From assembly GCA_003820645.1 (NCBI GenBank), contig RPOR01000013.1:1-40826 (forward strand): 40,826 bases of DNA, given 5' to 3'. This DNA comes from Betaproteobacteria bacterium (GTDB lineage Bacteria > Pseudomonadota > Gammaproteobacteria > Burkholderiales > SG8-41). The notes under the pieces are model-generated. The model made no database searches, was not told where the DNA came from, and was given only the letters and a program-made list of their open reading frames with translations. This document shows, one piece after another, positions 20,526 through 32,814 of the stretch (position 1 is its first letter; every line of letters starts with the position of its first letter). The position numbers and the translations under genes are program-made.

Positions 20526-20554
20526 TTGCAGATTGAATATGCGGCCACTAGAAT
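20526..20554 (+). promoter_or_regulatory. predicted promoter of nrdA
   Basis: TTGCAG (20526-20531), 17-bp spacer, TAGAAT (20549-20554). The -10 lies inside the first NrdR-type box. The rest of the ampD-nrdA gap (20346-20525) is AT-rich, and I see no gene in it. Confidence 0.7.
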
Positions 20555-20591
20555 TGGGCGCAAATAACGCGTAAACCACAATATATAGTGG
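20545..20591. promoter_or_regulatory. pair of NrdR boxes upstream of nrdA
   Basis: The box at 20576-20591, CCACAATATATAGTGG, is a palindrome close to the NrdR consensus. A weaker box starts at 20545 (CCACTAGAATTGGGCG), exactly 31 bp earlier, the three-turn spacing typical of NrdR operators. NrdR represses ribonucleotide reductase genes when dATP is plentiful. The nrdR gene is not in the window. Confidence 0.75.
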
Positions 20592-20657: not shown

Positions 20658-23522
20658 ATGCAGATCGCCGTAGAGCCCACCCCGTCCCGCACCACCCCGC
20701 AAATCACCGCGACACCCGAAGACGCCGTACGAGAGGCGCTCTATGCGCAGTACAAGGTGATACGCCGGAACGGTTCGGTAGTGAGCTTCGAGCCGGCGAA
20801 GGTGGCCATTGCGATGACCAAGGCGTTCATTGCGGTGAATGGCGGTCAGGGGGCGGCTTCGGCCCGCGTGCGCGAGCAGGTTGCGGCACTGACTGAAAGC
20901 GTGGTCGCCGCACTGATGCGGCGCCAGCCCTCGGGCGGCACTTTCCATATCGAGGACATTCAGGACCAGGTGGAACTTGCGCTGATGCGCATGGGCGAGC
21001 ATCACGTCGCCCGCGCCTACGTGCTCTACCGCGAGGAGCGCACGAAGGAGCGCGCGCGCCAGCGCGAAGCGCAGCCGGCGGCGATGGCGCAACGCGAGCA
21101 CGTGATCAATGTCATCGACGGTGGTGTGAAACGGCCGCTTGATCTGCCGCGGATTACCGCGCTCGTGGAAAGTGCCTGTGCCGGTCTGGGCCGCGAGGTG
21201 AGCACCCAGCCGATCCTGGACGCAATGCATCGTGATCTCTACGAAGGTGTGCCGATCGAGGAGGTTCGCAAGTCGCTGGTGCTGGCTGCGCGGGGTCTGA
21301 TCGAGCAGGATCCGGGCTACAGCTATGTCACCGCACGCCTGCTGCTGCACACGGTGCGTCTGGAAATCCTCGGCGAGGAAGTCACGCAGGAACAAATGGC
21401 GACGCGTTATGCCGAGTATCTGCCGCAATTCATCAAGAAGGGCATCGCGGCGGAATTGCTGGACGAACGTCTGGCTAGCTACGATCTGCAGGCGCTGGGT
21501 GCGGCACTCGATGCGCAGCGCGATCTCAAGTTCGCCTATCTCGGTCTGCAGATACTCTACGACCGCTATTTCCTGCACATCGGCGGGCAGCGTATCGAGT
21601 TGCCGCAGATCTTTTTCATGCGTGTCGCGATGGGCCTCGCACTCAATGAGCCGGCGGGCGAGCGTGAAGCACGTGCCATCGAGTTCTACAATGTGCTGTC
21701 CAGCTTCGATTTCATGAGCTCTACCCCGACACTGTTCAATTCCGGTACCCGCCGCTCGCAGCTGGCGAGCTGCTACCTGACCACGGTATCAGATGACCTG
21801 GACGGGATTTACGAGGCAATCAAGGAAAATGCGATGCTGCAGAAGTATGCCGGCGGCATCGGCAACGACTGGACGCCGGTGCGCGCGCTCGGCGCGCACA
21901 TCAAGGGCACGAACGGCAAATCTCAGGGTGTGGTGCCGTTCCTGAAAGTGGTCAATGACACGGCGGTTGCCGTCAACCAGGGGGGCAAGCGCAAGGGAGC
22001 GGTTTGCTCCTACCTTGAAACCTGGCATCTGGATATCGAGGAATTCCTGGAGTTGCGGAAGAACACCGGTGATGACCGGCGCCGGACCCATGACATGAAT
22101 ACCGCCAACTGGGTGCCCGACCTTTTCATGAAGCGGGTCATGGAGAACGGTGAGTGGACGCTGTTTTCGCCGTCCGACGTGCCGGACCTCCATGAAAAAT
22201 TCGGCAAGGCCTTCGAGAAAGCTTACCTGGAGTACGAGGCGAAGTGCACCCGCGGCGAGATGAAGCTGTACAAAAAGGTTCCGGCGAACCAGTTGTGGCG
22301 CAAGATGCTTACGATGCTGTTTGAGACCGGGCATCCGTGGATCACCTTCAAGGATCCCTGCAATCTGCGTTCGCCACAGCAGCACGTCGGTGTGGTGCAC
22401 AGTTCCAACCTGTGCACGGAGATCACGCTGAACACCGGTCCGGACGAGATCGCGGTATGCAATCTGGGTTCGGTGAATCTGCCGGCGCACCTCGACTTGT
22501 CCACCGGCCTGCTCGACATGGAAAAACTCAGGCGTACAGTCGGCACCGCGATGCGCATGCTCGACAATGTGATTGATCTCAATTTCTACAACGTCAACAA
22601 GGCACGCAATTCCAACTTCAAGCATCGCCCAGTGGGCCTCGGCATCATGGGCTTTCAGGACTGCCTGCACATGTTGCGCATGCCGTACGGTTCGCCGGCC
22701 GCAGTGGAATTCGCCGACCGTTCGATGGAGCAGATCGCCTACACGACGTATTCGGCGTCAGCCGATCTGGCGGAGGAGCGTGGTCCGTATTCAACCTTCA
22801 AGGGCTCGCTGTGGGAACGGGGCGTGTTGCCGCTGGATTCGGTCAGGCTGCTGGCCGAGGAGCGCGGCGGTTACGTCGAGTGTGACATGTCGACCACGCT
22901 CGACTGGGACAGCCTGCGCAGCCGTATCCAGCGCGTGGGCATGCGCAACTCCAATTGTCTCGCCATTGCACCCACCGCAACCATTGCCAATATCACCGGA
23001 CTGTCGCAGTGCATCGAGCCGACCTACCAGAACCTCTACGTGAAATCCAACCTGTCGGGCGAATTCACGGTCGTCAACGAATTCCTGGTCCGTGACCTGA
23101 AAAAGCTCAACCTGTGGGACGAGGTGATGATCGCCGACCTGAAATATTTCGACGGCACATTGTCGAAGATCGACCGTGTACCGCCAGACGTGCGCAGTCT
23201 GTATGCCACGGCTTTCGAAATGGACGCGAGCTGGCTGGTCGAATGTGCGGCGCGCCGGCAGAAGTGGGTAGATCAGTCGCAATCGCTGAACATTTACATG
23301 GCCGGCGCATCGGGCAAAAAGCTCGACGAAACCTACAAGCTGGCCTGGCTGCGCGGCCTGAAGACGACTTATTACCTGCGCACGCTAGGGGCCACTTCGA
23401 CCGAGAAGTCCACTTCCAAAGCCGGACAGTTGAACGCGGTGCCATCGGACGGCGGCATGTCAGCTGATGAGCAACCCAAGGCGTGCTCGATACTCGATCC
23501 CGAGTGTGAGGCCTGCCAGTAG
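20658..23522 (+). CDS. nrdA: ribonucleoside-diphosphate reductase, alpha (large) subunit, class Ia
   Basis: 954 aa. Two ATP-cone regulatory domains precede the barrel: the first at about residues 30-120 (KVIRRNGSVVSFEPAKVAIA), the second at about 150-240 (VINVIDGGVKRPLDLPRITA). The catalytic domain contains NLCTEITLNTGPDEIAVCNL, with active-site Asn, Cys and Glu residues, and GLGIMGFQDCLHM. The C-terminal tail ends CEACQ, the shuttle cysteine pair. It reduces NDPs to dNDPs with the NrdB radical subunit. The ATG at 20658 has AAGGAG at 20645-20650; an upstream GTG at 20592 would lie inside the NrdR operator region. The doubled ATP cone suggests strong dATP feedback. Confidence 0.96.
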   Translation: MQIAVEPTPSRTTPQITATPEDAVREALYAQYKVIRRNGSVVSFEPAKVAIAMTKAFIAVNGGQGAASARVREQVAALTESVVAALMRRQPSGGTFHIEDIQDQVELALMRMGEHHVARAYVLYREERTKERARQREAQPAAMAQREHVINVIDGGVKRPLDLPRITALVESACAGLGREVSTQPILDAMHRDLYEGVPIEEVRKSLVLAARGLIEQDPGYSYVTARLLLHTVRLEILGEEVTQEQMATRYAEYLPQFIKKGIAAELLDERLASYDLQALGAALDAQRDLKFAYLGLQILYDRYFLHIGGQRIELPQIFFMRVAMGLALNEPAGEREARAIEFYNVLSSFDFMSSTPTLFNSGTRRSQLASCYLTTVSDDLDGIYEAIKENAMLQKYAGGIGNDWTPVRALGAHIKGTNGKSQGVVPFLKVVNDTAVAVNQGGKRKGAVCSYLETWHLDIEEFLELRKNTGDDRRRTHDMNTANWVPDLFMKRVMENGEWTLFSPSDVPDLHEKFGKAFEKAYLEYEAKCTRGEMKLYKKVPANQLWRKMLTMLFETGHPWITFKDPCNLRSPQQHVGVVHSSNLCTEITLNTGPDEIAVCNLGSVNLPAHLDLSTGLLDMEKLRRTVGTAMRMLDNVIDLNFYNVNKARNSNFKHRPVGLGIMGFQDCLHMLRMPYGSPAAVEFADRSMEQIAYTTYSASADLAEERGPYSTFKGSLWERGVLPLDSVRLLAEERGGYVECDMSTTLDWDSLRSRIQRVGMRNSNCLAIAPTATIANITGLSQCIEPTYQNLYVKSNLSGEFTVVNEFLVRDLKKLNLWDEVMIADLKYFDGTLSKIDRVPPDVRSLYATAFEMDASWLVECAARRQKWVDQSQSLNIYMAGASGKKLDETYKLAWLRGLKTTYYLRTLGATSTEKSTSKAGQLNAVPSDGGMSADEQPKACSILDPECEACQ

Positions 23523-30691: not shown

Positions 30692-30880
30692 ATGACGGGG
30701 CATCCTGATCCCAAACCGGAAAAGCCGCCTGAGCCGGAGCCGTGGGAATGTTGCCAGAGCGGTTGTGACCCTTGTATTTATGATCGTTATTGGGAAGCGC
30801 TCACTAACTATGAAGCGGCGCTCCGGATCTGGGAAGCACACCAAGCCCGGCCAATTCCCGACCCACAAGACGAGTTATAA
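30692..30880 (+). CDS. small oxidoreductase-like protein with CCxxGCxPC motif
   Basis: 62 aa. A proline/glutamate-rich start (PKPEKPPEPEPWE) leads to CCQSGCDPCIYDRYWEAL, the signature of the small 'oxidoreductase-like protein, N-terminal' family, also known from eukaryotic mitochondrial proteins. The four cysteines could bind metal or a cluster. No function is established that I know of. It starts 3 bp after the preceding stop, so it belongs to the sigma operon. Confidence 0.8.
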   Translation: MTGHPDPKPEKPPEPEPWECCQSGCDPCIYDRYWEALTNYEAALRIWEAHQARPIPDPQDEL

Positions 30881-31143
30881 CCAACTGTTTTAATTGATAT
30901 TGTTTTAACAGCATGGTTTCAACGGTGGCGTCTGGCCCCGTTTGGGGAACTCTTTGCTGCAGTGCAACTCGAATTCTCGAGATTTGCCGGGCTCGAAATC
31001 TCCGATGTGACGGTAAATATCATAAATAGTATTAAAAAACAATAAGTTATATTTTTATTGCTCGCGTCCGCTATTGCCGTTAAACTTCGCGCCCGGCTGT
31101 TGCCCCGAGTCAAGCGCCCGGACTCCGGGTCACGCAGATGCGG
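30881..31143. other. AT-rich intergenic spacer with inverted repeats
   Basis: No gene seen. GC is clearly lower than in the surroundings. It contains CCCC-GTTT-GGGG near 30948-30959, and a perfect 7-bp inverted repeat GAGATTT (30979-30985)/AAATCTC (30996-31002). A very AT-rich patch at about 31015-31058 follows. A terminator for the sigma operon is not obvious. Confidence 0.4.
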
Positions 31144-31172
31144 TTGCGATGTGAGTCTTGAACACCTAGAAT
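31144..31172 (+). promoter_or_regulatory. predicted sigma-70 promoter of the leader and transglycosylase
   Basis: TTGCGA (31144-31149), 17-bp spacer, TAGAAT (31167-31172). The start point is expected near 31178-31180, just before a T7 run and the first strand of the folded leader. Confidence 0.7.
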
Positions 31173-31178
31173 TAGTGA

Positions 31179-31317
31179 GTTTTTTTGAGTGGCCCCCAAC
31201 CTGTAGTGGTTGGTGCTGATCGCAGTCTTAAGGAGACACCCCGTTACCGTAGCGAGGTAACACCCAGCTCAAGGCGTCCGGGTGCAAGCCGGCGCCACTC
31301 CCCAAAGGAGGTTTTGC
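31179..31317 (+). ncRNA. structured 5' leader of lytic transglycosylase, candidate translational riboswitch
   Basis: Stems visible by pairing. P1 GAGTGGC (31187-31193)/GCCACTC (31294-31300) closes the whole leader. P2 is CCAACC (31196-31201)/GGTTGG (31208-31213). P3 is GTCT (31225-31228)/AGAC (31234-31237). P4 is GTTACC (31243-31248)/GGTAAC (31256-31261). P5 is GGCG-T-CCGG (31273-31281)/CCGGCGCC (31289-31296). CTCC (31298-31301) can pair with GGAG (31307-31310) of the ribosome binding site, and CTC (31298-31300) is also the end of the P1 3' strand. Forming P1 therefore frees the site and opening P1 hides it. CACCC (31261-31265)/GGGTG (31280-31284) competes with P4 and P5. I could not match it to a known riboswitch class. 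Confidence 0.55.
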
Positions 31318-32088
31318 ATGTTCGCAAAATCGATTTCAGAACTATCCCCGGAACAGGTGGCGACACCGCTGCACTGGACCCGCAAGATGCTCACGCTGGC
31401 TGTATTTTTTGCCAGCTTTTCCGCCCTCGCCCTGTTGCTCCACGAACGTTACGGCGCCCAATGGCTGGAGGCTGCCTATGCGGCGGTCGAGAGTGAGGCC
31501 AAGGCCGTTTCCGAGCGCGTACTGACGCCACCGCCGGCGCCCGCCGCGCATCCGGACGCTGCCCGCCACAAGGCACTGGCCGATTTTCTGGCCAAGCGCT
31601 ACCAGGTGTCGCCAGCCGTGACGCTCGAGTTCGTGCAGATCGCCCATGCCGAAGCCGGTCGCGTCAACCTCGACCCGCTGTTGATCATGGCGGTAATTGC
31701 CGTCGAATCGCGCTACAACCCGATTGCGGAAAGCGGGGTCGGCGCCAAAGGCCTGATGCAGATCATCCCGAAATTCCATGCCGACAAGCTGGCCGAATTT
31801 GGCGGTGAGAAAGCGGTATTCCATCCGGAATCCAATATCCGTGTCGGTACCCGCATCCTCCGCGAATACCTGTCCCGCACCGGCAACCTGGGTATTGCGC
31901 TGCAGATGTATGCCGGCGCGCTGAGTGACGCGAATGACACTTACACCAACAAGGTGCTGGGCGAGAAACAGCGCCTGCAGCGGGTGGTCGCGACGCTGGA
32001 TGAACCGGCAGCCAGCGCCGTGCGTATCGCACATAACACACACATCGCGCGCGAGGCCCGCCGCATCAATTCGCCGCTCGGCGAATAG
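31318..32088 (+). CDS. membrane-anchored lytic transglycosylase with SLT domain
   Basis: 256 aa. One membrane helix at about 22-42 (MLTLAVFFASFSALALLLHE) anchors a periplasmic SLT domain. AVIAVESRYNPIAESGVGAK holds the catalytic glutamate, followed by GLMQIIPKFHADKL, then NIRVGTRILREYLSRTGNLG and ALQMYAGAL, where most family members have a YN(A/G)G-type motif. It cleaves peptidoglycan glycan strands. The ATG at 31318 has GGAGG at 31307-31311, inside the folded leader. It is followed 32 bp later by a cyclophilin-like gene. Confidence 0.9.
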   Translation: MFAKSISELSPEQVATPLHWTRKMLTLAVFFASFSALALLLHERYGAQWLEAAYAAVESEAKAVSERVLTPPPAPAAHPDAARHKALADFLAKRYQVSPAVTLEFVQIAHAEAGRVNLDPLLIMAVIAVESRYNPIAESGVGAKGLMQIIPKFHADKLAEFGGEKAVFHPESNIRVGTRILREYLSRTGNLGIALQMYAGALSDANDTYTNKVLGEKQRLQRVVATLDEPAASAVRIAHNTHIAREARRINSPLGE

Positions 32089-32120
32089 TCGCTGCAAGCG
32101 TCACGCGGCTTCCTGCCCCT

Positions 32121-32492
32121 GTGGCGAGCATCCGCATTTCCTGGGCCAGCGGGTCGGTGATTGCCGACCTGCAGCCGGGTCCCACGGTGACGAGGCTGCT
32201 GGCGGCATTGCCTTGCGAGTCCACCGTCAGCACCTGGGGCGAGGAGGTGTATTTTTCCCTGCCGGTCGCTGCCAGGCCGGAACCCGGCGCACAGCAGGTG
32301 GTGGATCCCGGCACCGTATGCTTCTGGGTGGAGGGCAGCGCGCTGGCGCTACCCTGGGGGAGGACGCCCGCATCCCGGGCTGACGAATGCCGCCTGGTCT
32401 GCGCCTGCAACGTACTGGGCCGTGTCCGTGGTGACCCTGCCGTATTGAAATCCGCCCGCGACGGCGAAACCATCCGCGTCGACACGATTTAA
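32121..32492 (+). CDS. cyclophilin-like fold protein (TM1367-type)
   Basis: 123 aa from a GTG codon, no signal peptide. The sequence matches the small Cyclophil_like family: TVTRLLAALPCESTVSTWGE, EVYFSLPVAARPEPGAQQVV, DPGTVCFWVEGSALALPWGR, TPASRADECRLV and CNVLGRV near the end. These share the cyclophilin barrel but usually lack the proline isomerase residues; function unknown. Four cysteines, more than usual. It probably shares a transcript with the upstream transglycosylase. Confidence 0.75.
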   Translation: MASIRISWASGSVIADLQPGPTVTRLLAALPCESTVSTWGEEVYFSLPVAARPEPGAQQVVDPGTVCFWVEGSALALPWGRTPASRADECRLVCACNVLGRVRGDPAVLKSARDGETIRVDTI

Positions 32493-32535
32493 GACGCGCC
32501 ACGCCCTATAATTCCCGTAACAGACGGGAGCGACC

Positions 32536-32814
32536 ATGGCCGACCAAGACGTACCCAAGGACTTTTTCGAATTCATGCAGAAAATGTGGAACCCGATGGG
32601 GTTTCCCATTCCCGGCATGATTGCACCGACGATGAACGTCGAAGACCTCGAGAAAAAGATCACCGAGCTGAAAGCGGTCGAGACCTGGTTGACCATGAAC
32701 ACCGGCTTCGTGCAGATGACCATCAAGACGCTGGAGATGCAGAAGGCCGGTCTGGAAAGTCTGCAGTCGGCGGGCAAGGCGGCAGCTGAAAGCGCAAAAA
32801 AAACGCCGAAGTAA
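32536..32814 (+). CDS. PhaM-type polyhydroxyalkanoate granule regulatory protein, short form
   Basis: 92 aa. The core KDFFEFMQKMWNPMGFPIPG, then LEKKITELKAVETWLTMNTG and FVQMTIKTLEMQKAGLESLQ, matches the N-terminal part of PhaM, which binds PHB synthase and granules. The long Lys/Pro/Ala DNA-binding tail of Ralstonia PhaM is reduced to AAAESAKKTPK. It is predicted to be helical and amphipathic. No phaC, phaA or phaB is in the window, so the link to PHA rests on homology. Its stop codon lies in the loop of the following terminator. Confidence 0.75.
   Translation: MADQDVPKDFFEFMQKMWNPMGFPIPGMIAPTMNVEDLEKKITELKAVETWLTMNTGFVQMTIKTLEMQKAGLESLQSAGKAAAESAKKTPK

Follow-up and report, generated by a model that had tools for sequence, protein, structure and literature searches.

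A predicted NrdR-type promoter and a conserved structured leader precede a lytic transglycosylase gene in one family of Burkholderiales

A lytic transglycosylase (LT) gene of a Betaproteobacteria bacterium is likely to be controlled in two layers, a DNA promoter carrying NrdR boxes and a leader RNA with three hairpins, here called H2, H3 and H4. The gene lies in a window of 40,826 nucleotides, by which we mean the whole stretch of DNA that was analysed; the promoter, leader, LT and nrdA features described below are on its forward strand. Judged by sequence comparison, the conserved promoter and structured leader before LT are real within one family, whose public records are mostly titled Burkholderiales or Betaproteobacteria. 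LT is a predicted new target of NrdR, the dATP-sensing repressor, because its operator design is common with that of the ribonucleotide reductase gene nrdA and because an NrdR gene was found in 69 of the 74 family genomes. In 68 of these genomes the match exceeded the cut-off, and the window genome is included (TIGR00244 at G000:C101:9865-10302, E 3.3e-58). From this shared design we infer both the binding of NrdR at LT and the direction of regulation. An earlier note had presented the region as a candidate riboswitch, and its claims are weighed below together with the other readings.

The transglycosylase gene and its leader within the family

The LT gene (31318-32088) encodes a protein of 256 amino acids with an SLT domain (PF01464, E 4.6e-18), which bears out its earlier identification as a lytic transglycosylase. 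The protein also weakly matches the MltC, Slt and EmtA models, below their cut-off, as well as solved relatives. Downstream of LT, a gene for a PhaM-type polyhydroxyalkanoate granule protein is present at 32536-32811 (NF043076). The predicted 5' untranslated leader, whose start is placed from the -10 element, covers 31179-31317 (about 138-139 nt). It contains the Shine-Dalgarno (SD) element AAAGGAGG at 31304-31311, recognized by sequence, in which GGAG is invariant in alignment A3. An SD-like AAGGAG at 31230-31235 directly precedes H2; many relatives share it, and no start codon follows. Compared with 200 shuffles, none of which folds as well, the leader has a z of -2.55, and it is conserved in one family, so the earlier description of a structured leader stands.

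By blastn, the leader was recovered from 18 of the 20 other genomes of the genus (E < 1e-20; missed in G010 and G017), while nothing matched at E < 0.01 in 24 genomes that belong to the same order but to other families. A covariance model made from 22 leaders was then run on the 74 family genomes, many of which are incomplete assemblies, and matched 62 of them. The LT gene was found by tblastn at 61 of the 62 best loci; at the remaining one, L105, there are only 80 nt of contig after the model match. Two more weak matches, L126 and L127, have no LT gene, and full-length matches in the family all precede LT, bar the weak match L126 (E 0.01). Fourteen family genomes showed no match or a partial one. 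Seven of these (G017, G023, G024, G030, G080, G082 and G083) possess a close LT relative (E < 1e-50), and the other seven have more distant SLT proteins alone. Four public metagenome-assembled genome (MAG) records, L031, L055, L057 and L058, are titled Bordetella parapertussis; these titles look doubtful, and their LT genes group with those of other uncultured Burkholderiales MAGs. Two alignments are used below: A1, with 22 rows, and A3, whose first 20 rows comprise 19 genus genomes and the close relative L041 and whose rows are related, so that counts taken from it are not independent events.

NrdR-type boxes in the LT and nrdA promoters

The sigma-70-type promoter proposed by the earlier note is present at 31144-31172, with a -35 element TTGCGA (31144-31149), a 17-nt spacer and a -10 element TAGAAT (31167-31172). 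It is the single sigma-70-like site in a scan of 30700-32600, a result that proves little on its own because shuffled sequences average 0.6 sites. TAGAAT itself is retained by 55 of the 61 family leaders aligned. Furthermore, a genus-wide search with the first hairpin of the leader returned a second recurrent site, located in the window at 20576-20591, 66 nt before nrdA. This gene (20658-23522) encodes the 954-residue alpha subunit of ribonucleoside-diphosphate reductase (PF02867, PF00317 and PF03477; NF005544 at 1730.9 bits against a cut-off of 965). In its promoter, TTGC is followed by TAGAAT, 21 nt and a box of the CCACAAnnTATAGTGG type, the part from TAGAAT to the end of the box occupying 20549-20591, and the -35/-10 layout of the LT promoter is the same. 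The segment 20545-20657, comprising the NrdR-type operator and the leader of nrdA, is the key comparison for the LT promoter.

The first hairpin makes better sense as DNA, namely as box 2 of an NrdR operator with two boxes. This box, CCCCAACCTGTAGTGG at 31194-31209, scores 17.0 with a matrix of nrdA box 2, the 99.9th percentile of the background being -3.9. Box 1, the partial palindrome CACCTAGAATTAGTGA at 31163-31178, scores 10.1 with the matrix from 33 nrdA promoters; it contains TAGAAT and therefore overlaps the RNA polymerase site. As in nrdA, where box 1 (20545-20560) also lies over TAGAAT and box 2 occupies 20576-20591, box 1 of LT starts 31 bp upstream of box 2, leaving a spacer of 15 bp and a gap of 21 nt from TAGAAT to box 2. 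In box 2 of the window, C replaces a conserved A at position 3, so that the box begins CCCC, while the right half of box 1 (TAGTG) is better there than in the genus relatives. Treating the first hairpin as an RNA element was rejected. Two registers fit, one passing a mean pair probability of 0.5 in 20 and the other in 18 of 57 leaders, and the column pair 12/20 is unpaired in 37 of the 57. A DNA reading explains both the double register and the mostly unpaired position. It counts against the operator reading that in the window box 2 can also fold as RNA in another register, CCAACC/GGUUGG. The hairpins are of two kinds, the first resembling an operator and the others RNA.

The same design was sought across the family with a strict pattern (TAGAAT, an allowed gap of 19-27 nt, then box 2) and a reversed-pattern control. 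In the 74 genomes, 84 matches were obtained in 58, all with a gap of exactly 21 nt, against 0 in the control; the LT promoter of the window is not among them because its box 2 begins CCCC. With nrdA of relatives identified by tblastn with the window protein, the gene downstream of the loci that were read was either nrdA or LT, except in G036, where the contig ends, and in G010, whose NrdR-type promoter (L250, G010:C342:1800-1842) has neither nrdA nor LT found downstream. A looser pattern applied to 399 genomes of the order yielded 60 matches in 52 genomes (reversed control, 3). Forty-two of these lie outside the family; of the 30 that were read, 28 precede nrdA, and the other 2 stand before a class II reductase gene whose match exceeds the TIGR02504 cut-off. 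Additionally, a third recurrent site, CCATTACCTATAGTGG, was seen near 501 in L193, L195 and L196 and also in L194; the gene behind it in the first three starts MEALKGVRILDMTHV and appears by eye to encode a CaiB-type CoA transferase.

Sixty-seven LT promoters were scored with the matrix built from 33 nrdA promoters. In 58 of the 67, the best box upstream of LT reached a score attained by at most 2.6e-4 of background positions, a figure that refers to the best of about 150 positions per promoter and to a background that includes the sites themselves. A box scoring at least 0 followed TAGAAT in 56 of the 67; over 162,073 positions, the sites among them, 105 score that high. The remaining 11 divide into 6 that lack TAGAAT, one of which (L107) has a good box elsewhere, and 5 that score below 0. 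The scoring box stands at a gap of exactly 21 nt, corresponding to the 15-bp spacer, in 43 promoters, so that relatives fit the two-box design better than the window does; the other gaps are 30 nt (9 promoters), 31 nt (2), 29 nt (1) and 20 nt (1). The 21-nt gap occurs at LT in genera g1, g2, g3, g4, g5 and g7 and at none in g8, so that the reductase spacing is kept in 6 of the 9 genera sampled. The 12 promoters with gaps of 29-31 nt belong to genus g9 (11) and g6 (1), and their spacers of 23 bp (1), 24 bp (9) and 25 bp (2) add approximately one helix turn. In a published Escherichia coli reporter, spacers of 15-17 and 26 ± 1 bp permit repression and those of 18-24 bp do not (PMC12051234). NrdR function at the long-gap LT promoters is consequently uncertain, since 9 of the 12 have a 24-bp spacer, within the derepressed range.

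The LT and nrdA promoters lie about 10-19 kb apart on one contig in 12 genus genomes, that of the window included, and the same linkage was observed in G026, G030, G031, G064 and G082. Such proximity would fit a local promoter duplication.

Hairpins of the leader RNA and competing readings

Hairpin H2 (31243-31261) has the sequence GUUACC-GUAGCGA-GGUAAC. Across 61 leaders, two-sided changes occur at 5 of its 6 pairs and 93.4% of cells are paired. The loop lacks symmetry, and in related rows 18 G.U cells were counted against 9 A.C cells. The alternative that H2 is a multi-gene operator was examined and rejected: counting the leader site, GTTACC-N4-9-GGTAAC has 1-3 copies per strand in 20 of 21 genus genomes and none in the remaining one, and the reversed control has 0-5, which gives no sign of a regulon. 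Because it is not a repeated operator, has an asymmetric loop and favors G.U over A.C, we tentatively infer that H2 acts as RNA and not as a DNA element. A loop-loop contact between the first hairpin and H2 was considered and set aside once the first hairpin resembled an operator. Complementarity of the two loops averages 3.02, the permuted value being 2.83, and 2 of 300 permutations scored at least that high; the effect is small and comes from rows that are related.

Hairpin H3 (31273-31296) varies in sequence while its fold is kept. In every one of the 61 leaders, the segment containing it, from H2 to the ribosome site, folds better than the average of its shuffles (mean z -1.84), whereas the linker before H2, taken as a control, has a mean z of -0.07 (n = 60).

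The best-kept element is H4 (31310-31331), an 8-bp hairpin GGUUUUGC-AUGUUC-GCAAAAUC that holds the end of the SD in its stem and the start codon in its loop. Over 61 leaders, 99.8% of cells are paired and 60 hairpins are fully paired; the mean pair probability exceeds 0.5 in 59, and predicted energies range from -5.7 to -8.8 kcal/mol. The coding sequence is constrained accordingly within the stem: Ala is encoded by GCA in 59 of 61 and Lys by AAA in 60 of 61, although elsewhere in these genes the two codons have shares of 11.7% and 32%, and the third base of the Ser codon just past H4 is G, A or C. Pairing is kept while the start of the protein shifts between M-x-A-K-S and M-A-K-S. Variation is scarce, with four changed cells that still pair in L110 and L122 and one broken cell in L120. 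Four g3 genomes (G030, G080, G082 and G083) were found by reading to have the LT gene without H4, and in G017 (L124) the SD and start-codon hairpin are kept while the rest of the leader has no model match. Among the 399 order genomes, an H4-like pattern occurs in 13, namely 10 of 12 sampled family members and 3 outside the family; at these 3 sites, inspection of 300 nt by eye revealed nothing resembling the beginning of an SLT gene. On this pattern of pairing and codon use, H4 probably limits or gates translation initiation. The earlier proposal that the leader RNA acts on LT translation is thus probably right, with the amendment that the best-kept element, at 31310-31331, extends past the segment 31144-31317 to which it had been assigned.

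What H4 does may be explained in two ways, both compatible with NrdR control of the promoter. It is quite possible, if short of probable, that H4 is a constitutive ribosome site, in which a strong SD and a start-codon hairpin set a fixed output. The near-invariance of its sequence and the invariant SD core in A3 agree with this, but conserved H2 and the kept fold of H3 are left unexplained. Those two features, together with the conservation and codon constraint of H4 and the retention of SD and H4 in G017 where the rest of the leader diverges from the model, would instead suit a translation switch formed by H2-H4 and controlled by a protein, a small RNA or temperature. Such a switch would be independent of NrdR and represent a new leader class. 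We regard it as a tentative alternative. An obvious protein for GGA sites, CsrA, was found in 0 of the 74 family genomes by a search whose positive control was found in 3 of 14 named genomes, and CsrA control through the AAGGAG and SD motifs was ruled out on this ground.

A further reading concerns transcription. A T-tract at 31180-31186 opens the transcribed region, and a T-run of at least 4 is present in 44 of 55 family leaders, compared with 4.6% of background 15-nt windows. UTP-sensitive slippage at this tract, comparable to that at codBA and upp of E. coli, could modulate LT transcription; the mechanism is on record in two reports (PMC6245113 and PMC4448216), and the predicted transcript would begin with a purine followed by U. 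Even so, this is unlikely: the tract sits in the spacer between the NrdR boxes and could serve DNA bending, the start site is itself a prediction from the -10, and 11 of the 55 leaders have no run of 4.

The earlier note had envisaged a ligand-gated riboswitch, in which a 7-bp helix P1 (31187-31193/31294-31300) would form the base of an aptamer and, once released, leave CUCC free to cover the GGAG of the ribosome site. Both complementarities exist in the window, the leader is conserved and structured, and P1 pair 5/113 shows two-sided change in 4 of 22 rows. Nevertheless, conservation of P1 was not confirmed. Of the 22 rows of A1, 9 have it complete; among the first 20 rows of A3, its strands are fully complementary in 9, and the other 11 reach runs of 4-5 bp at most. 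In the covariation check that had been named beforehand, its paired cells (70.5%; A1, 22 rows) equal those of shuffled columns (71.7%), with 433 of 500 shuffles as high. All four CUCC/GGAG pairs form in just 10 of the 22 leaders, and covariation of this helix is not assessable because the GGAG strand never varies and the shuffle control is empty; the anti-SD helix is thus neither proven nor refuted. The competing helix CACCC/GGGTG (31261-31265/31280-31284) occurs in the window row only (1 of 22). The absence of known riboswitch classes was confirmed, with no Rfam match at the gathering threshold for the window leader, under relaxed filters too, or for 20 relatives; the best match of the leader at E up to 10 was a 12-bit CRISPR repeat. 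Given the lack of covariation in P1, the resemblance of the first hairpin to an operator common to nrdA, and the restriction of full-length model matches in the family to LT, bar the weak L126 (E 0.01), a riboswitch built on P1 is rejected and the wider ligand-gated reading is very improbable. More generally, an operator palindrome within a transcribed leader can pass for a riboswitch stem.

Possible function and relation to known systems

In the proposed mechanism, the first layer would act through the NrdR boxes at the -10 and 31 bp downstream. When dATP is plentiful, NrdR loaded with dATP and ATP would repress LT together with nrdA; as DNA synthesis draws dATP down, both genes would be released. 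In the second layer, the transcript would carry H2, H3 and the 8-bp H4, with the SD end held and the start codon looped out. We tentatively propose, as a possibility still short of an even chance, that NrdR controls LT like a reductase gene, thereby timing wall cleavage with the synthesis of DNA precursors, and that a second signal acting on a new class of leader RNA opens H4. Within this one family, the shared promoter design points to a coupling of wall cutting with DNA synthesis. If true, transcription would directly connect the dNTP level with the remodelling of the wall; a limited search of the open-access literature found no paper linking NrdR to a lytic transglycosylase.

On the RNA side, translation-limiting start-codon hairpins place the start codon in the loop and the SD at the foot of the stem, and the LT leader is alike. 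Unlike such hairpins in general, that of LT is almost fixed in sequence across the family and, in the gene of the window, includes codons 3 and 4. Another RNA motif upstream of an annotated lytic transglycosylase is the YjbJ motif of Streptococcus (WRC-39-1); it is described as a pair of hairpins lying some 30 nt before the SD, and it is by this description that it is set apart from the LT leader (PMC11109978).

On the DNA side, the LT promoter shares its design with nrdA in the same genomes. The NrdR box was reportedly defined by Rodionov and Gelfand in 2005. Like the NrdR operators of nrdAB, nrdHIEF, nrdDG and nrdJ, LT has a putative pair of 16-bp boxes, a 15-bp spacer and box 1 over the -10. 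Published work describes operators of paired 16-bp boxes with spacers of 15-16 bp, or 25-26 bp in S. pneumoniae (PMC12051234), a -10 that is covered by box 1 in P. aeruginosa (PMC4409342), and binding of DNA and repression of reductase genes by dATP/ATP-loaded NrdR (PMC9110341). In contrast to reductase operators, that of LT precedes a gene for a peptidoglycan enzyme, its boxes are more degenerate, and 12 of 67 LT promoters have a spacer approximately one helix turn longer. The closest precedent for NrdR on a non-reductase gene, as predicted for LT, is topA of Pseudomonas aeruginosa, the one other direct target named besides reductase genes in the excerpted report (PMC4409342). However, topA has a single box and is activated (PMC4409342), whereas the LT promoter is laid out with two boxes, like those reductase promoters that are repressed.
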